Shown: piece by piece, positions 23,444 to 32,103 of the stretch | Layout of the letters: every line of letters starts with the position of its first letter | How positions within the stretch are numbered: the stretch's first letter is position 1 | Origin: an uncultured Bacteroidales bacterium | GTDB taxonomy: Bacteria > Bacteroidota > Bacteroidia > Bacteroidales > Muribaculaceae | Assembly (NCBI GenBank): GCA_902782465.1 | Contig: CACZNH010000025.1 | Location: 1-37,893 of the forward strand | Direction: 5' to 3' | DNA length: 37,893 bases | The notes under the pieces: model-generated | What the model saw: only the letters and a program-made list of their open reading frames with translations | Database searches by the model: none | Told to the model about the DNA's origin: nothing | Program-made: the position numbers and the translations under genes

Positions 23444-23516
<73 letters not shown>

Positions 23517-23525
23517 CTCTTTTTT

Positions 23526-23609
23526 GTCCAGGTGGCGGAATTGGTAGACGCGCTACTTTGAGGGGGTAGTGCCCAATTGGGCGTGTGAGTTCGACTCTCA
23601 TCTTGGACA
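23526..23609 (+). tRNA. tRNA-Leu (anticodon GAG)
   Basis: Class II tRNA with acceptor GTCCAGG/CTTGGAC, anticodon stem CTACT/GGTAG around TTGAGGG (GAG at 23560-23562), long variable arm GCCCAATTGGGC, and T loop TTCGACT. CCA is not encoded. The accessory segment begins directly after it, so its 3' end is a natural attachment-site candidate. Confidence 0.95.
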
Positions 23610-23618
23610 CCTTTTTCG

Positions 23619-23655
23619 AGCGGAAGCCGTTGAAATTCAACGACTTCCGCTTTTT
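23619..23655 (+). terminator. Terminator of the tRNA cluster
   Basis: Long stem AGCGGAAG-CGTTGAA / TTCAACG-CTTCCGCT with one mismatch, loop ATT-type, then TTTTTC. Begins 10 nt after tRNA-Leu. Confidence 0.9.
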
Positions 23656-23667
23656 CGTGGTCAAAAT

Positions 23668-23747
23668 TGCACACAAATTGCACACTTATTCTCTGAAAAC
23701 TGCACACTTTTTTGGCCTCTGCACACCAATTTCTGCAAATTGCACAC
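23668..23747. repeat. Five phased TGCACAC repeats
   Basis: TGCACAC occurs at 23668, 23679, 23701, 23720 and 23741, with start-to-start distances 11, 22, 19 and 21, close to whole helical turns; three copies are preceded by AAATT. This looks like an array for a DNA-binding protein on one face of the helix, such as integrase arm sites or initiator iterons. It lies between the tRNA terminator and the first gene of the accessory segment. Confidence 0.55.
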
Positions 23748-23801
23748 CACATCTCCCCGTATCTCTTTTTCTAAAAAAATCATAAGCCTCCCACCCCATC
23801 A

Positions 23802-23833
23802 TATCTCACTTTAGAGATAATTTAGTAACTTTG
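23802..23833 (+). promoter_or_regulatory. Promoter and overlapping inverted repeat of the 327-aa gene
   Basis: TAACTTTG at 23826-23833 fits TAnnTTTG. Just upstream, TATCTC-ACTTTA-GAGATA (23802-23819) is a 6-bp-arm inverted repeat covering the -33 zone, as an operator would. Confidence 0.5.
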
Positions 23834-23871
23834 CGTTCTAGAACCATTACAACACATAAAACAATGTTTCC

Positions 23872-24855
23872 ATGGCGTATTTAGCAATTAAAGAATATGG
23901 CAAACGTATTAATGAAATGGCCATCCGTTTTTCAAAGTATGATAACATATTCGATGGGGCAAGTTCATTAATGGAATATAATGAAATTCATTATATTTTC
24001 TCTCGATTGGCTTGTCGAGAGCTCTACGCTAATGATATCTACCCCGGCAACCAAAGAGTTGTTACTACCCTATATAATAAATTTGTTTTTTCAGAACTGT
24101 TGAAGAAGGCGTTTCTATCTAAACCTTTTAAGAACCAAGACACAGAAATTGAATTTATTGAAAAAGGGATTGAAGATGGATATTACCTTCTCTGTCATGC
24201 ACAGGAACTTTTGATGGCAATAACAGTAACAGCCTATCCTGACCGCTTTAAAGAATCACGCGTTAAAGAAGCCATAGCGACCCTCAAGGAGGTGACCGCA
24301 TTGACAGAAGCAAATGTTAGTAGATTTAATCTTGCTTACGCAAAACTTGCAGCTAAAGACGCCCAAAGAATTGAAATGATGCAAGCAGAGGCCGTAGAAC
24401 AAGAAAAGAATCAAGACAATAGCCCAGGCAACCAGAAAAAAGACACTGTTGCAGAATGCCCAGAAATGACTCAGAATCAAGATGGCAAACAAGTGCAGCC
24501 AGCCTATCAAGTGGCAAGAAAGTATATCATTGAGAATAATGATCTTCTTCTTCAGATACATAAATTTCTTGTTGAAACAAAAGTGCTTTTATCAGATGTT
24601 CTTTTTCCTGTTTTTCTTGACATGGCCATTAATGCAGATGCTAGCAACATCACACCTCAAAAGAAGTGGAAGTTTATTACCAGCCTTTGGTATGTAGCAA
24701 CTTGTGTAAAAGGTGATCAAAAGGTCTGGGCAAGGGATATTTGCAAATCAATCGGGAAAAAACCTAGTGATTTAACAAAGTGCGCTGAAAAAGATCCAGG
24801 ATGGCTAGATGATTTAAAAAAACTAGTGGAAAACAACCAAAAAAATCAATTTTGA
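23872..24855 (+). CDS. Hypothetical protein of 327 aa in accessory segment
   Basis: Family not recognised. It is soluble and mostly alpha-helical by composition, with no signal peptide. Two helical parts (about 1-170 and 215-327) are joined by a Gln/Asn/Glu/Lys-rich linker (about 172-212). The C-terminal part holds KWKFITSLWYVATC and KSIGKKPSDLTKCAEKDPGW. The coding sequence is clearly more A/T-rich than the core genes to the left, which together with its place after tRNA-Leu suggests transfer. It has its own promoter-like element with an overlapping inverted repeat, and its stop codon merges into GACCAGAAAA repeats. No partner gene indicates a role. Confidence 0.75.
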   Translation: MAYLAIKEYGKRINEMAIRFSKYDNIFDGASSLMEYNEIHYIFSRLACRELYANDIYPGNQRVVTTLYNKFVFSELLKKAFLSKPFKNQDTEIEFIEKGIEDGYYLLCHAQELLMAITVTAYPDRFKESRVKEAIATLKEVTALTEANVSRFNLAYAKLAAKDAQRIEMMQAEAVEQEKNQDNSPGNQKKDTVAECPEMTQNQDGKQVQPAYQVARKYIIENNDLLLQIHKFLVETKVLLSDVLFPVFLDMAINADASNITPQKKWKFITSLWYVATCVKGDQKVWARDICKSIGKKPSDLTKCAEKDPGWLDDLKKLVENNQKNQF

Positions 24856-24892
24856 CCAGAAAAGCCAGAAAAGACCAGAGAAGACCAGAAAA
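24854..24892. repeat. Four direct GACCAGAAAA repeats
   Basis: Units at 24854 (GACCAGAAAA), 24864 (GCCAGAAAA), 24873 (GACCAGAGAA) and 24883 (GACCAGAAAA) run head to tail, beginning inside the stop codon of the 327-aa gene. The 9-10 bp period matches one helical turn, iteron-like. Confidence 0.6.
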
Positions 24893-24970
24893 ATAATTAA
24901 GTAAAAATGCATTTAATTCGTTGAAACACAACGAATAAACATGTGTTAGCTTTTGTGATTTTTTCTTCAT

Positions 24971-25009
24971 TTACCAGACAATTACCAGACAGCAATGGTT
25001 GTAACTTTG
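24971..25009 (+). promoter_or_regulatory. Promoter region of the HTH/replication operon
   Basis: TTACCAGACA occurs twice in tandem (24971 and 24982), followed by TAACTTTG at 25002-25009, a -7 match. A canonical -33 TTTG is absent; the doubled ACCAGA word, shared with the repeats at 24854-24892, may be an activator or autorepressor site instead. The transcript leader would be about 105 nt. Confidence 0.5.
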
Positions 25010-25121
25010 CAATGTCCGAACGATGATGGACTGGCGCAAAGTTTCTGCGACCGAGAGCTGGAATCGGGAGGGCGTAAAACAAACCCGAGCGAGAATCTGC
25101 TCATTTTAAATACATCATTTT

Positions 25122-25436
25122 ATGGGAAACACACTTGTTTTATCAGACATCCTGGCATCAGATGCCAATGTCATCCTTCAAGTTTCAGCAAAGGACTTGA
25201 AAGAGTTCGCGCAGAACATTCTTGTCGGCGCAAAGTCAGTCGCTATGATCGAAGCCGAAGCCGCTGCGACGAGCGACCAGTTATTAACCATCGACGAGGC
25301 ATCAGAGTTGCTATCCGTCTCCAAGATGACGCTCTACCGTTGGGACCAGAACGGCATCCTCAAGAAGGTAGAGATCGGCGGCAAGCGTCGCTACCGCAAA
25401 AGCGACATCGAACGACTCGTCGGTTGTAAAATCTAA
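25122..25436 (+). CDS. Excisionase-type helix-turn-helix protein
   Basis: 104 aa. Residues ~53-100 are an HTH_17/MerR-type winged helix: LLTIDEASELLSVSKMTLYR is the HTH and the wing follows with KRRYRKSDIERL. Such proteins in Bacteroidetes elements act as directionality factors or small transcription regulators. The N-terminal half (MGNTLVLSDILAS...) is a helical extension of unknown role. First gene of a plus-strand operon of four, with its stop 6 nt before the next start. Coding GC is higher than in the 327-aa gene. Confidence 0.85.
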   Translation: MGNTLVLSDILASDANVILQVSAKDLKEFAQNILVGAKSVAMIEAEAAATSDQLLTIDEASELLSVSKMTLYRWDQNGILKKVEIGGKRRYRKSDIERLVGCKI

Positions 25437-25442
25437 TCTATC

Positions 25443-25529
25443 ATGGAAAACACACTGTATTCGAAAGGCAAGTTCAGCCTCCTTGTGGAGGCTGAGTTGT
25501 CGGTCGACGAACTTTCAAAGAGATTGTAA
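25443..25529 (+). CDS. 28-aa small protein in the replication operon
   Basis: ATG to TAA, 28 codons, with product MENTLYSKGKFSLLVEAELS plus eight residues, fitting snugly between the HTH gene (6-nt gap) and the winged-helix gene (2-nt gap). It starts M-x-NTL like the HTH protein upstream and ends in a similar amphipathic L-S-V-D-E-L segment, so it may be a duplicated N-terminus lacking the DNA-binding part. Support is position, tight spacing and that resemblance only. Confidence 0.45.
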   Translation: MENTLYSKGKFSLLVEAELSVDELSKRL

Positions 25530-25531
25530 CT

Positions 25532-26272
25532 ATGAACGACAGGGGCTTCACCATGGTTCCAAACGCCATCATCCGTTCGTCAGTACTTAGCATTGCTGAG
25601 AAAATGGTATGGAGCTACATAGCTTCCATGCCTAACGGGTATAGGTATTCGATTCATTCAGCGTGTAAGACGCTGCACATCGGTGATAAGATTTGGCGCC
25701 GTGCCATAATCAAACTTGAGAAATTAGGCTTGATATCCGTAAGGCATGAACCCGGGATGGCGACGGTTTATGAAGCCTCGAAAGATGCCCTCGAATGGGA
25801 TGGGACCCCTGGTCAAATGACCAACGGTTTAGATGACACCCCTAGTCAGATAACCAGCGGTTCAAACGACACCCCTAGTCAATTAACCACACCACCCCTG
25901 GTCAATGAGCAGCAGGTTACACATATTAATAAGAAAAAACTATTAAATAACAACGTCGACGACGATACGTGTGCACACATGAGAGAAAAACTTGAACATG
26001 AAGTGATGATTGACGGCAACATTGAGCTCGCATGTAAGAGTTGCGGCATAACGCAGACACAATACATGGAACTCGCTACAGCAATTATCGCAGAATGGAA
26101 ATTCAAAGATCTTCCAGACAGTGAGTGGACCAAGAACCACTTCATATCTGTGCTTAGATACAAAGTTAAAAGCTTTAAAAATCACAATTATGAAAAAGAA
26201 AATTCAAGAAATACTGCAACAACAAGTAACCCGCTTTCAAATGCAACCATCCACACCGCCAATATCGGTTGA
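25532..26272 (+). CDS. Winged-helix replication-initiator-like protein
   Basis: 246 aa. Residues 1-75 resemble the N-terminal winged helix of plasmid/phage initiators and DnaD-like proteins: FTMVPNAIIRSSVLSIAEKM, YRYSIHSACKTLHIGDKIWR and a wing with LISVRHEP. Then comes a linker with three DTPSQ-like repeats (about 93-118), and a C-terminal helical domain ending in EWTKNHFISVLRYKVKSF (about 195-212), a pattern seen at the end of primosome-type proteins. Next to a DnaC-like ATPase this suggests an origin-recognition/loader-recruiting role, by analogy with phage replication pairs. The ATPase gene overlaps its last 83 nt in another frame. Confidence 0.75.
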   Translation: MNDRGFTMVPNAIIRSSVLSIAEKMVWSYIASMPNGYRYSIHSACKTLHIGDKIWRRAIIKLEKLGLISVRHEPGMATVYEASKDALEWDGTPGQMTNGLDDTPSQITSGSNDTPSQLTTPPLVNEQQVTHINKKKLLNNNVDDDTCAHMREKLEHEVMIDGNIELACKSCGITQTQYMELATAIIAEWKFKDLPDSEWTKNHFISVLRYKVKSFKNHNYEKENSRNTATTSNPLSNATIHTANIG

Positions 26273-26885
26273 TTGGGCCAAAGAAATGGCCTTCTTCCGA
26301 GCTGCTTTCCTTAAAGTCGAACCTCGTTTTGACCCGAAACTGGCTGATAGGAACATCTTAAACTCACTCTTTGCCTGGGTATGGAAGCTCGATGAGTACA
26401 ACAAGCTCAAGTTGGATTACAATAAAGGGTTTTGTTTCTATGGAGATATCGGTCTAGGCAAGAGTATGACCCTGCAAGCTCTACGCCAATACCGGAATGG
26501 TCTAGTTTCTCGAAACGAAAGTAAGAGAGAAGATTTCCGCATGAAGGGAACTTGGCTGAAGGCTGCAAGTGAATTGGCGAACATATTTTCAGTTGATGGG
26601 CAGCCAGCTCTTATAAAATACACAACCGACGAAATCAACCTTATCATCGATGAGTTGGGAAGAGAACCCAGACCTGCGAAATATTTCGGTACCGAACTGA
26701 ATGTCATCCAGTTTGTACTTCAGTTGCGCTATGATCACAGGCGTGATAGTGTCACCCATATCACTACCAACCTAAAACTCGAAGACATTGCGCAGAAATA
26801 TGGTGCATATATTGCTGACCGTTGCCTGGAGATGTTCAACTTTATCGAGTTCAAGGGCGCTAGTCTCCGATCAAAAATACACTAA
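26190..26885 (+). CDS. DnaC-like AAA+ helicase-loader ATPase
   Basis: 231 aa from the ATG at 26190 (MKKKIQEIL); an upstream in-frame start at 26121 lies deeper in the preceding gene and adds residues without family character. Walker A is GDIGLGKS (85-92), Walker B is LIIDELG (151-157), sensor 1 is HITTN (190-194), and Arg211 in ADRCLEM is the arginine-finger position. The nearest families are DnaC/phage loader and IstB; without a transposase nearby, helicase loading is favoured. The start lies inside the upstream winged-helix gene (83-nt overlap), consistent with translational coupling. It ends 92 nt before an intrinsic terminator. Confidence 0.85.
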   Translation: MKKKIQEILQQQVTRFQMQPSTPPISVDWAKEMAFFRAAFLKVEPRFDPKLADRNILNSLFAWVWKLDEYNKLKLDYNKGFCFYGDIGLGKSMTLQALRQYRNGLVSRNESKREDFRMKGTWLKAASELANIFSVDGQPALIKYTTDEINLIIDELGREPRPAKYFGTELNVIQFVLQLRYDHRRDSVTHITTNLKLEDIAQKYGAYIADRCLEMFNFIEFKGASLRSKIH

Positions 26886-26976
26886 CATGTCTAACCCATT
26901 GACATCGGCACGTTTTTCTACTATTGCCAGCGATTTGGTGTGGTATGAGATAGTTTATATTGAAGCTGTTATTGAA

Positions 26977-27017
26977 CCTTCCGCTGGCGTTTTCGGACGG
27001 CAGCGGAAGGTCGTTTT
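26977..27017 (+). terminator. Terminator of the HTH/replication operon
   Basis: Stem CCTTCCGCTG/CAGCGGAAGG with a 14-nt loop, followed by TCGTTTTTGG. It closes the four-gene operon and separates it from the structured non-coding region. Confidence 0.8.
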
Positions 27018-27061
27018 TGGTTGCGACTTTTTGTGAGTGCGTGACAAAAAACAGCCAAAAA

Positions 27062-27312
27062 TTTAACATTTGAGGGTGGTCTCGAAAGTGGCCGTAAAAC
27101 CTGTATTCATCGGGGTTCTTTCAGAAAAAAAAGTGTTAAAATGCACGTTTTTTTACGACTTGTAAAGGATTGAAAAAATCAAATGCTTGATTATCAAGCA
27201 TTAAAGGGTTAAAAAGGGAAATTTTTCCCTTTGTCTCTCTCTCAGGAGCCCCCTACCGCCCTGCGGGGCGCTTCTGAAAATGGCCGTCAAAAAAGCGCTA
27301 TATGCAGGGCGA
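27062..27312. repeat. Structured module, copy A
   Basis: No gene. Ordered blocks: TTTAACATTTG (27062), CGTAAAA (27093), GTTAAAAT (27135), the palindrome AATGCTTGAT-T-ATCAAGCATT (27182-27202), the hairpin AAAGGGAAA-TT-TTTCCCTTT (27213-27232), TGTCTCT, ACCGCCCTGCGGGGCG (27255), and GCGCTATATGCAGGGCGA (27295-27312), whose GCAGGGCG pairs with CGCCCTGC. The same blocks recur in copy B, most of them 525-526 nt downstream. Confidence 0.7.
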
Positions 27313-27330
27313 ATGTGCGGTAATGTCGCT

Positions 27331-27513
27331 TAGGTGCATAGATGAAATCGGGCGACAGTTCGGTTTCATCCATGCCTAGGGAACTAATTCGGCCTGGTGC
27401 AAAGGCCGAAGCATGGCAGAATGGCCTTTGCCCTGGCATTTTCGGCATTTATGTTGTGCGGTGAGACGGTTTTAACGAAAGCTGTTACCGCTTTTCTCCG
27501 TGGCGATAACAGC
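27331..27513. other. Hairpin cluster between the two modules
   Basis: Three strong stems are visible: TAGG/GCAT with GATGAAA pairing to TTTCATC and ATGC-CTA (27331-27378); TTCGGCCT/AGGCCGAA with a 7-nt loop (27388-27410); and GCTGTTA-CGC/GCG-TAACAGC (27481-27513). No reading frame of substance. Confidence 0.5.
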
Positions 27514-27587
27514 CGCTTTCAAATGGTGACGTCTTGCTGATGCATCGTGTTGCCTGCTGGGACTTCATGAATGATTAAGCGGAAAAT

Positions 27588-27838
27588 TTTAACATTTGGG
27601 CTTCCATTTTTAAGGCGTCGTAAAAATACCTATATCAGCAAGTTAGACTATAGTCTCACGGACGAGAATTTGTTAAAATCACATTTTTTCCGCACTTCAA
27701 AAAAAATATCCGCTGATAATCAGCGGATTAAAGGTTGAAAAGGAAATTTTTTCCTTTTGTCTCTGTCACAGGACCCCCCAACCGCCCTGCGGAGCGTGTT
27801 ACAAACTCGCTTTCAAAAATGCGCTATATGCAGGGCGA
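27588..27838. repeat. Structured module, copy B
   Basis: Same block order as copy A: TTTAACATTTG (27588), CGTAAAA (27619), the palindrome ATCCGCTGAT-A-ATCAGCGGAT (27708-27728), the hairpin AAAAGGAAA-TTT-TTTCCTTTT (27738-27758), TGTCTCT, ACCGCCCTGCGGAGCG (27781), and GCGCTATATGCAGGGCGA (27821). Half of the palindrome arm positions differ from copy A, yet pairing is kept. Only GTTAAAAT breaks the fixed offset (537 instead of 526). Confidence 0.7.
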
Positions 27839-28868
27839 TTCTGGCATTGTGCGGTGATGATGCTGACGTGCGTGAGCGCATCCTACACGCAGTATCGGTT
27901 GCGCTTATGCTCGTCAATACCGCTGATTTCTGTGCGACAACATCGTGCCTTGAACTTGTTCCAGGCTTGATGTTGTGCTCTGGCGATGGCGACGGGCGGT
28001 GAAGCGCAGGCAAGGGAGCGCAGAATGGCGACAGAGGCTGGAGTGTGCCCAAGGCTCACAGCACCGATACCCCTGAGCGCAGCGAAAACAGCGGGGTGCG
28101 GAGGGAATGAAGTGGAGGCACAAGATGAATGGAGTCATCGTGAGTGCCAGGCGGGATGCCGGCGTTGCGGGGCAATCTACGATTGAGCATCGGGCTTGCG
28201 TAACGTCAGGATTGGGTTGAGGACGAAGGACGAACCCGATACCAGTGCAGCGAGCCGGGTGCGTACCCGAACCCGCCGTCAGCAGACCGCCTTGAACCGC
28301 AGGTGTTGCACTGTCGATGACGCAGCGAAGCGCAGTGCGGAACGGGAATGACCGCAGCAGCCGGCTGTGGGGGTGTCGGCGCGGCCAGTGAGCCTGACCA
28401 GGCACTCTCCAGCCGATAAGTCAGTCATTCGGAGCGGACGCAGACGGAGCGGAACGGCCCATCGCCATCGGGGTTCGCGGGTGGGCCAATCGCTGCAGGC
28501 GATGAAAAGATTCTCCTAATGGCCGAAGGCTTGACCTTGGGATCGATGGCCATGACGCAGGCTGCACCGACGGCGACCGAGCGTAGCGAGGTTTGCCGCC
28601 GGTCTGGGGCTTGTTCCCTGGAGCTTTAGCCGACGTGCCAGGATGAACGTAGTGGACGAGTGTGCCATGGGGCTGGCAGCATCGATACCTCCGAGCGTAG
28701 CGAGAACGCTGGGCTTGATTGAGGAGCGTGCATCAAATCGAGCGTAGCGAGACCTGATGCGTCAGCGACGAAACGAGCCGTGCGTGTGAGGTTTCGATGC
28801 GTACAGACAGCCCGATAAGGCACTCTCGGTAACGGAGTGATCCCGACACGGCGGTATCAGCGGCAGGG

Positions 28869-29141
28869 CCATCGATGAGCGGTGGGAACAGGGTGATCTC
28901 CGCCGGGCGAAGTCGCCCAACGGCATGAGGCTGTAGTGGAGCAGCTCAATCCAGCCAGCGCAGCCGGTTGGTTGAGGTGCGGAACGTATAGCAGCCGAAT
29001 ACAACCCCGTGACCAGAGCAAGTGAATTTCCCATGCAATGATGGAATGGTGGAGGCCTTCTCAAGTGTATGCTGTCTGTCGGGGATTGTTGTTTGTCCCA
29101 TTGACAAAAAATGTGGGGAGCCTTGATAGCGCCCCACACCA
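28869..29141 (+). repeat. 272-nt repeat, copy 1
   Basis: Matches 31832-32103 with roughly 20 differences by eye; weaker similarity begins earlier at GCACTCTCGG (28820). Stems include GGGCG-AAGT-CGCCC, GAG-CTG(T)/(G)CAG-CTC and CCAGC/GTTGG. The right end is a minus-strand terminator hairpin. Confidence 0.85.
29106..29138 (-). terminator. Terminator of the btuR-transporter operon (inside repeat copy 1)
   Basis: TGTGGGG/CCCCACA stem, which on the minus strand is followed by TTTTTTG. It lies 58 nt past the transporter stop at 29196. Confidence 0.85.
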
Positions 29142-29195
29142 ATCACTTAATTCAATTAAATAATTGTTCAGAAAGATTTATCCGATTCTCTCTCT

Positions 29196-30701
29196 TTATA
29201 GTAAGTGTGCTTTTCCAATTAAATACAGAAGGGCGTAGCCCAACACCATGCTGATAATGCCCACGATGATGCCCATGCGACTCATGTCCTTTTGGTTAAC
29301 GAGGTTGGTCGAGAACGCGAGGGCATTAGGCGGTGTGCTGATAGGCAACACCATAGCACTTGATGATGCGATGGCGATGCCGATGAGCACGGTGGCGGTA
29401 CCGCCGATGGCATCCAGTTTGTCACCCATAGCGCCACAGACGATGGCGAGAATGGGCATCAGCAGGGCTGCCGTCGCCGAGTTGCTGATGAAGTTGGACA
29501 ACAGGTAACAGATCAGACCGGAAAGCAGCAGTATCAGAATGGGCGAGAACGTGTTGAACGGGATGCTCTTGACGGCATTCTCGGCCAGGCCTGATGCATT
29601 GAGGCTGTAGCCCAGGGCAAAACCGCCCGCTACCATCCAGATCACGCTCCAGTTTATTTCCTCAAGATCATATTTGTTGATGACTCCTGTCATGGAGAAG
29701 ACGGCAAACGGAATCAGTGCAACCGTGTTGGCATTGATACCCGTGAGACTATCGGTGAGCCACAGGAGGACGGTGACGATAAACGTCCAAATGACGATCT
29801 TGGTATGCTTGGTTTTCTCCATATTGCTCTCTATCTCAAGGTGGATGGTCTTTTGGCTGAACGGGTACATCGTCTTGAGCAGGAACCAGCCGATGAACAA
29901 CAAGAGAATCACAAGCGGGAACATGAACAGCATCCATTGACCGAAGCCAAGGCCCATATTCAGGCCATCGGGGTCATTAAGGAACTTCATGGCGATGGTG
30001 TTGGGCGGTGTGCCGATGGGCGTTCCCATACCTCCCAGGTTGGCAGCGAGAGGGATAGCCAGCGTCAAGGCAATACGCCCCTTGCCTTCGGGCGGCAGCT
30101 GTTTGAATACGGGGGCAAGGAAGGTGAGCATCATTGCCGCGGTGGCCGTGTTGCTGACAAACATCGAGAAAAAGCCCGTGATAAGGATAAATCCCAACAG
30201 GACATTCTCGCTCTTGGTGCCGAACGGCTTTAACAGCACATGTGCCAGATGGGTGTCAAGACCTGTCTTGGATGCCGCAATGGCAAGAATAAAACCGCCG
30301 ATGAACAGCATGATGACCGGGTCGGCAAAACTTGACATGATGTCCTTGTAACTGAGCAGTTGCCCCACCTGCTCCTCATTGACCATGGGTTTGATACCGC
30401 TGTTCGAGGTGAAGAGCAACAAGAACACCATGATGAAGATGGAGGTGGCCCATGAGGGCACGACCTCGGTAATCCACATCAGCGTTGCCAGAATGAAGAT
30501 GGCGATGATGCGTTGTTGGATGACTGTCAGACCATCGATGCCGAACACACCAGCAGGGAGGTTCCAGATGATTAACGTGATCACCGACAGAATGAGCGCG
30601 GTAATAATGCGCTTGTTCACCGATGACTCCTGACTGCGGTTTTCTCTCTTGTTCTTGTGGTAGGCTTCAACCATGTGGAAGCCATGAAATATCTTAAACA
30701 T
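29196..30701 (-). CDS. DASS/SLC13-family sodium:anion symporter
   Basis: 501 aa with 11-12 hydrophobic segments after a short charged N-terminus. The family (CitT, NadC, VcINDY) moves dicarboxylates, tricarboxylates or sulfate with sodium. The two sodium/substrate motifs are present: SNTATAAMML (first half) with GTPIGTPPNT, and SNSATAALLM (second half) with STPPNALAF. The second gene of a minus-strand operon, 17 nt after the corrinoid adenosyltransferase and therefore under the cobalamin riboswitch. A succinate-type cargo would fit B12-dependent methylmalonyl-CoA mutase metabolism, but substrate is not determined. The start ATG 30701 gives a 30-residue cytoplasmic lead; a later Met (HMVEAY) is possible. 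Confidence 0.92.
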   Translation of the reverse strand: MFKIFHGFHMVEAYHKNKRENRSQESSVNKRIITALILSVITLIIWNLPAGVFGIDGLTVIQQRIIAIFILATLMWITEVVPSWATSIFIMVFLLLFTSNSGIKPMVNEEQVGQLLSYKDIMSSFADPVIMLFIGGFILAIAASKTGLDTHLAHVLLKPFGTKSENVLLGFILITGFFSMFVSNTATAAMMLTFLAPVFKQLPPEGKGRIALTLAIPLAANLGGMGTPIGTPPNTIAMKFLNDPDGLNMGLGFGQWMLFMFPLVILLLFIGWFLLKTMYPFSQKTIHLEIESNMEKTKHTKIVIWTFIVTVLLWLTDSLTGINANTVALIPFAVFSMTGVINKYDLEEINWSVIWMVAGGFALGYSLNASGLAENAVKSIPFNTFSPILILLLSGLICYLLSNFISNSATAALLMPILAIVCGAMGDKLDAIGGTATVLIGIAIASSSAMVLPISTPPNALAFSTNLVNQKDMSRMGIIVGIISMVLGYALLYLIGKAHLL

Positions 30702-31319: not shown

Positions 31320-31544
31320 GCCACCGAAAAGGTTACTATATACATACACTTATTGTTTCATGCCACGAGGCATTACACAATCAAAATCTGCAAGTGACCT
31401 TGACAATGGGCATAGACGTGAATAAATCGGATGGATTGACTGCCTGCAGGCAGCCACACACGCGAGTTTCCTCATTCAGGAGGATGACTGGTGTCTTGAT
31501 TGTCCAACTCTATTACCACGAGAGTCAAAGCAACTTATGTCCAA

Positions 31545-31728
31545 CTTGGCAGGTCTTCTGGCTTATCCCATTGTCACACGGCCTTCCCATCCTTGGCGGA
31601 CAGTGACTCTGTCTGTGTGACAACTTGGTCGGGACTTACAGCAGCGGGTCTGCTCAGGATTCTCACCTGATTCCCTTTTAATCTGCGACACATCACGGCG
31701 TGATGCCCGCAGCACCAAATTTTCGGCT
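31545..31728 (-). promoter_or_regulatory. Cobalamin riboswitch
   Basis: Read on the minus strand it has the class hallmarks in order: TTTGGTGCTG at the 5' end, AAAAGGGAATCAGGTG, AATCCTGAGCAG, CCCGCTGCTGTAA, and the B12 box AGCCAGAAGACCTGCC (31563-31548). It sits about 300 nt before btuR and directly after a promoter. By the known class, adenosyl- or other cobalamin binding represses the operon. Confidence 0.95.
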
Positions 31729-31729
31729 G

Positions 31730-31759
31730 CAAAATTACTACTTTTTTTAATATAACAAA
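31730..31759 (-). promoter_or_regulatory. Promoter of the riboswitch-btuR-transporter operon
   Basis: TAATTTTG (31737-31730 on the minus strand) with TTTG (31759-31756) 18 nt upstream, one nt short of the usual spacing. It places the transcript start at the 5' edge of the aptamer. Confidence 0.65.
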
Positions 31760-31831: not shown

Positions 31832-32103
31832 CCATCGATGAGCGGTGGGAACAGGGTAATCTCCGCCGGGCGAAGTCGCTCAGCGGCATGAGGCTGTGGT
31901 GGAACAGCTCAATCCAGCCAGCGCTGCCGGCTGGTTGATGTGCGGAACGTATAGCAGCCGAATACAACCCTGTGACCAAAGCAAGTGAATTTCCCATGCA
32001 ACGATGGAATGGTAGAGCTCTTATCAAGTGTATGTTGTCTCGGGGGATTGGTGTTTGTCCCATTGACAAAAAATGTGGGGAGCCTTGATAGCGCCCCACA
32101 CCA
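31832..32103 (+). repeat. 272-nt repeat, copy 2
   Basis: Second copy of the element at 28869-29141, same orientation, about 3 kb away. Similarity of lower quality reaches back to GCACTCTCGG at 31780, next to the riboswitch promoter. No larger part of the structured region is present here. Confidence 0.85.
32068..32100 (-). terminator. Terminator of the FKBP-receptor operon (inside repeat copy 2)
   Basis: Same TGTGGGG/CCCCACA hairpin with six T residues on the minus strand, 42 nt past the receptor stop at 32142. Confidence 0.85.

Follow-up and report, generated by a model that had tools for sequence, protein, structure and literature searches.

The closest described systems are GOLLD and ROOL. 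According to the parts of PMC12286853 that deal with them, both are large, elaborately structured RNAs of phages and prophages (many GOLLD RNAs exceed 800 nt, and a rumen example of ROOL is described) that are often located near tRNAs and form RNA cages; their function is unknown, and the role of such giant phage RNAs is an open question. A comparable setting is known from Vibrio where, according to the relevant sections of PMC7567579, phage ICP1 transcribes an ~800-nt non-coding RNA, encoded next to its lysis cluster, more abundantly than anything else, and the satellite PLE of this phage has an abundant non-coding RNA of its own, the IIR RNA; those sections do not describe the two RNAs as related.

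The window, that is, the whole stretch of 37,893 nt analysed here, carries a member of what seems to be an uncatalogued family of large structured RNAs from Bacteroidales phages and satellite-like islands (Table 1). As far as can be seen, this RNA is like GOLLD and ROOL in kind but belongs to neither family, and it resembles them, as well as the RNAs of ICP1 and PLE, in anatomy and setting. With GOLLD and ROOL it shares large size, extensive covarying structure and a location in phages and prophages. On the other hand, their covariance models gave no match at the gathering score in the window and seven related loci, and an Rfam search of 23500–29200 at E ≤ 10 returned neither, the best non-tRNA match being anti-hemB (23 bits, gathering score 49.5). 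No Rfam family was matched, in line with the initial annotation, which knew of no named element with this layout. Here, unlike in GOLLD, it is the 5′ domain that is detected widely; the layout differs from that of ROOL in the tandem shortened copies found in islands; and, in contrast to what is said of ICP1 and PLE, the phage and island RNAs are homologous. We found neither similar DNA in collections of plasmid and phage records nor a recognisable description of the RNA in the open-licence PMC papers searched.

Table 1. Features of the window referred to in the text, in order of position.
Feature	Position	Strand	Evidence or remark
tRNA-Leu(gag), upstream of island	23526..23611	+	
327-aa protein	23872..24855	+	no Pfam, PHROGs or PADLOC match
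Helix-turn-helix protein, excisionase-like	25122..25436	+	Pfam HTH_17 (1.7e-13); PHROGs excisionase families
DnaD-like replication-initiation protein	25532..26272	+	PHROGs 428 (4.6e-7) and 186 (8.7e-7)
DnaC-like helicase loader	26187..26885	+	PHROGs 3277 (6.9e-15)
RNA copy 1, 5′ domain, shortened paralogue without body	27164..27383	+	R1, 202.6 bits
P1 palindrome, copy 1	27182..27202	+	read from sequence
RNA copy 2, the full-length ~780-nt RNA (about 27709–28490)	27690..28490	+	R1 (27690–27918, 219.4 bits), R2 (28130–28326, 212.6 bits), profile (27711–28510, 863 bits), structure
P1 palindrome, copy 2	27708..27728	+	sequence and repeat search
P2 A/T-rich hairpin, copy 2	27738..27758	+	G/C-rich in many phage copies
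Predicted closing helix	27775..28484	+	27775–27779 with 28479–28484
P5 long hairpin, most persistent covarying element	27864..27916	+	8 of 11 outer pairs changed on both sides (16-sequence set)
Hairpin after P5	27937..27976	+	9 of 14 pairs changed on both sides
Body domain	27984..28470	+	bounded by long-range helix 27984–27991 / 28463–28470
Nested body helices	28088–28099 / 28357–28368 and 28161–28171 / 28266–28277	+	predicted; in the former, long-range helix, 7 of 9 pairs changed on both sides
Third, partial body copy	28648..28838	+	R2, 35.0 bits, E 2.8e-8; profile pieces 28657–28732 and 28762–28828

The locus was originally singled out for paired non-coding modules with compensated palindromes, and these are real. 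An ungapped repeat pair (27188–27317 and 27714–27843; 130 nt, 78% identity) has a spacing of 526 nt, as has a further block upstream (27057–27072 and 27583–27598); the arms of P1 differ between the copies at 5 of 10 positions with self-complementarity kept in both, and the 18-mer GCGCTATATGCAGGGCGA is unchanged. The pair is beyond chance, as 40 of the 101 genomes searched from the window's genus contain similar DNA. The extent assigned to the modules, 27062–27838, proved too narrow: past the 18-mer, conservation continues into another hairpin in the aligned copies, and for copy 2 up to ~28490. What had been taken for a self-contained module of ~250 nt is really the 5′ domain of longer RNAs. 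The body model R2 has no match at copy 1, whose 3′ end lies perhaps near 27560 and whose single-sequence fold (27248–27560) has a z of −3.5. Among relatives sharing the xis-repD-dnaC operon, some have two copies (the window, L102, L103, L104, L106, L123, L126 and L127) and others one (L125, L129, L130, L135, L136 and L137), so the doublet is not essential; of the two things expected of relatives, the pairings are largely kept, whereas the doublet is not constant. A search of viral contigs for the 18-mer gave three matches, taken as chance since their flanks, judged by eye, lack the other blocks of the module.

The proposed selection for structure was supported on 26 diverse copies. Their MAFFT alignment (83 modules, of which 71 had enough flank and 28 remained after those ≥88% identical were dropped; L140 and L161 were excluded from this alignment, A1, and the window's two copies replace two L102 copies) supports hairpins P1, P2 and P3 and the long P5; modules below 90 bits had been dropped in an early module comparison and those below 60 bits later. 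For 40 hand-drawn pairs, a set whose score is favoured because it was drawn with the same alignment in view, covariation was 0.357 compared with 0.204 ± 0.010 after shuffling (0 of 500), 81.7% of cells pair (72.6 ± 0.7 shuffled), and sliding the partners lowers covariation to 0.08–0.15. RNAalifold's own prediction from the 26 copies has 17 of 24 pairs with both sides changed and pairing kept. Nineteen phage copies (L276 being, judged by its length, the same contig as L254) were absent from the set that built the covariance model R1, yet all were found with it. Without a shuffle control, P5 is predicted in all 19 (−15.9 to −36.6 kcal/mol) with its sequence largely replaced, while P1 is absent from four (L240, L259, L284 and L333) and weaker in some others; P1 was therefore rejected as a universal feature. 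RNAalifold applied to these 19 alone gives 17 pairs, 5 of them with both sides changed, recovering the base of P5 and missing P1 and upper P5, regions that the plain alignment handles poorly. In locus L128 (5900–6010), a tRNA-Leu terminator hairpin occupies the place of P1 and is followed by the perfect palindrome GGTCAAAATTGACC instead of P2; the RNA is thus fused directly to the tRNA.

Homologues of copy 2 align over ~800 nt, in both islands and prophages. With 16 full-length sequences (L125 was omitted because an insertion interrupts its RNA), 62 of the 151 pairs predicted by RNAalifold changed on both sides with pairing kept, against 30.6 ± 3.6 in shuffled alignments (0 of 200); 95.9% of cells pair (88.2 shuffled), and the alignment energy is −133.9 kcal/mol, compared with −50.2 ± 5.7 in 20 column-shuffled alignments. 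Some of the supported helices are long-range. The closing helix is nearly invariant and hence was not tested by covariation, and some others also vary too little to enter that test. For 14 body sequences, RNAalifold gives 8 of 26 pairs with both sides changed. The single-fold z is −4.3 for the long RNA and −5.2 for 28505–29040, and −0.3 and −1.0 for two coding stretches; across eight phage copies it is uneven, ranging from 0.0 to −4.2 (with −1.1, −1.5, −2.7 and −3.3 among the values), which we count against the reading preferred below. Six loci (L104, L105, L121, L124, L128 and L134) have insertions of ~67–68 nt in the body, near window positions 28043–28047 and 28347–28352, with flanking matches overlapping by 5–6 nt, resembling a very small mobile element. 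Elsewhere in the window, 31832–32017 is a fragment 94% identical to 28869–29054 that adjoins a cobalamin riboswitch (31531–31734, minus strand).

A first wobble count (157 G-U and 18 A-C) was discarded as biased, since the prediction accepts G-U. When G-U was barred from the prediction, so that pair choice favours neither strand, the plus-strand pairs held 36 G-U and 14 A-C cells, and the minus-strand pairs, in their own sense, 11 G-U and 31 A-C. These counts favour the plus strand as the functional single strand, and the alignment energy of the minus strand is −103.8 kcal/mol. The same wobble test finds no strand bias in the 5′ domain alone, and the single-sequence z does not separate the strands (−4.3 and −4.7). 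The RNA is non-coding: substitutions are level across codon positions, many indels are not multiples of three, and stops occur. A 163-aa minus-strand open reading frame (27914–28405) was rejected as a protein by the codon-position and indel pattern.

The 5′ domain is far more widely detected than the body. At E ≤ 0.01 per genome, where about three chance matches are expected in the family search, R1 matches 68 of 297 sampled family genomes in 15 of 30 genera. In the order it matches 9 of 344 sampled genomes, namely the window's own, two strongly (3.6e-21 and 5.5e-14), two moderately and four near the threshold. R2, whose locus search covered 72 loci, matches 18 of the 297 family genomes and 1 of the 30 genera, the window's own; that phage copies outside the genus share only the 5′ domain at R2's sensitivity also counts against the preferred reading. 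An exact-pattern search found 23 contigs from metagenome-assembled genomes labelled Muribaculaceae, Prevotellaceae, Porphyromonadaceae or Bacteroidales, several of them from ruminants; the window itself presumably stems from a rumen or gut Bacteroidales, probably one of the Muribaculaceae.

Two genomic contexts recur. The 85 loci compared are those fetched rather than all matches of the genus and family searches, and some share one genome. In 27 of them the RNA is divergent from a tape-measure gene. Upstream of the RNA, 24 others show both a tRNA and replication genes, 6 show replication genes without a tRNA and 16 a tRNA without replication genes, and 12 loci fall into neither context. None combines the tape-measure and island contexts. 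A special tie to replication, given the replication-like operon pointed out in the initial annotation, is not borne out, as 27 loci adjoin a tape-measure gene and 16 adjoin a tRNA with no replication gene detected. The 12 loci outside both contexts count against the preferred reading; they include L111, with two copies, and L112, with four, the latter in fact containing a tRNA-Ala end. A same-strand tRNA lies ≤5.5 kb upstream in 40 of the 85 loci, but in 0 of the 27 tape-measure loci.

In the phage context one copy of the RNA is present; it is oriented divergently to the tape-measure (tail-ruler) gene and lies in the long gap that separates this gene from its neighbours. Twenty-six of the tape-measure proteins align (34–98% identity to the first), and the five scanned (L225, L160, L254, L249 and L226) all match PHROGs tape-measure families; the RNA of phage contig L225 lies between the tape-measure gene and an endolysin-family gene. 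An independent test used IMG/VR loci fetched by tape-measure alignment alone (L274 is the same contig as L225). Among the best 79 of 166 relatives, 68 of which have at least 700 nt upstream, R1 matches 36 at E ≤ 0.001 and 42 at E ≤ 0.05, and 31 of the 36 matches are divergent and ≤1.5 kb upstream of the tape-measure gene. Against the association stand, within the same best 79, the 5 of 36 matches outside the expected place and the 43 loci with no match at E ≤ 0.001. In Flavobacterium phage laban6-1 (L357), the spot that the RNA takes in Bacteroidales phages, upstream of the tape-measure gene and divergent to it, is occupied by genes for a methyltransferase and an HNH endonuclease.

The other context comprises 46 of the 85 loci, islands linked to a tRNA and/or replication genes, the latter being detected upstream in 30. 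Each of the 40 same-genus loci fetched, and the window, has one to four tandem copies, and a same-strand upstream tRNA (Leu(gag), Ala(ggc), Lys, Arg or Pro) is present in 35 of 41 loci. Island RNAs comprise one to four copies, full-length and/or tandem 5′ domains, often directly after an excisionase-like gene and replication genes. As small tRNA-linked islands with such genes, one of them with defence-like genes, they resemble phage satellites of the PICI, P4 and PLE types, and may well be satellites themselves. The window's island differs from these in two respects that count against the comparison: no integrase was found among its proteins tested (Pfam and PHROGs), and the search for a duplicated tRNA end gave only chance-level matches of 11–16 nt, though islands may extend beyond the stretch searched. 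The L117 island does have an integrase. A reading of the modules as integrase sites was dropped because they share no core.

Several further observations concern these islands. Diverged relatives of the 327-aa protein (22–35% identical) occupy the same post-tRNA place in others, and after the tRNA terminator, in window positions 23612–23760 and at the left ends of other islands, tandem pairs of ~10-nt direct repeats can be seen by eye (AAATTGCACAC twice, CCCCATATA twice) that resemble recombinase arm sites. Three consecutive tyrosine-recombinase genes lie directly upstream of a full-length RNA in L161 (155–3324). In L111 (2717–6572), a two-copy array is immediately preceded by genes for an AAA ATPase, a PDC-M55B-like protein and GmrSD_N (PADLOC PDC-M55 models).

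R2 finds the body in both contexts, and in a tree of 16 full-length RNAs phage and island copies are mixed in each of two supported clades, so that, by a count made by eye, the context must have changed at least twice. At least two copies are present in 22 of 46 island loci, a lower bound as many contigs end in the array, and in none of the 27 tape-measure loci, each of which has one plus-strand copy. The genome from which the window comes contains a single locus of each kind, island and tape-measure (prophage); as regards induction or packaging of the island by a helper phage, the prophage with the same RNA is only suggestive.

Taken together, these observations make it somewhat probable, in our view, that the family is a trans-acting RNA of a phage programme of which islands bear their own versions. 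The RNA would be transcribed from the plus strand and form a large folded particle that works in trans during the lytic programme of the phage, and islands would carry versions of it to use, or compete for, that step of the helper phage, by which they may be mobilised. A rival reading, which we hold to be unlikely, is a cis-acting DNA signal common to helper phage and islands (a packaging, replication-origin or recombination site) whose hairpins would form as cruciforms or in single-stranded DNA and whose tandem copies would raise packaging or replication. Its presence in phages and islands alike, the tandem copies in 22 of 46 island loci, the palindromic 5′ domain without strand bias and the position after the replication genes in replication-linked loci are all as such a signal would have it. 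Yet the body has strand-biased wobble and covarying long-range helices, 16 tRNA-linked loci show no replication gene, and in the 11 of 12 phage records that have a terminase-like match, a weak one, it lies ~9–42 kb away (hand-computed distances), which argues against a cos or pac site.

It is rather unlikely that the RNA is accessory cargo of phages and islands for defence, superinfection exclusion or counter-defence. The patchy presence (68 of 297 family genomes), the defence-like genes upstream of the RNA in L111, the gene-less arrays adjoining tRNA-Ala and the laban6-1 genes, which indicate that the tape-measure spot can be a cargo site, would fit; against this, no partner protein was seen conserved beside the RNA in both contexts, and the cargo at the spot is that of the one named phage inspected there. 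A mobile, MITE-like intergenic repeat with hairpins serving transposition might explain why parts of the downstream region turn up again at several loci, that at 31832–32017 among them, but appears very improbable given the recurrent position and orientation beside one phage gene, the position-specific subtypes that array members keep across genomes, and the elaborate covarying body.

The trans-acting RNA may be envisaged more specifically, though we consider this version quite improbable: the phage RNA would assemble into a homo-oligomeric particle that the lytic cycle requires, and the shortened tandem RNAs of the islands, 5′ domains lacking the body, would co-assemble with the helper's RNA or titrate it. 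If true, the islands would be doing with RNA what satellites do with proteins when they redirect helper phages. The family amounts to a natural experiment, with homologous RNAs in phages and in islands that are maybe phage-dependent and carry tandem shortened copies. Its occurrence in over a fifth of the family genomes sampled, together with the lack of an Rfam entry, makes it a concrete and testable system in culturable gut-type bacteria.
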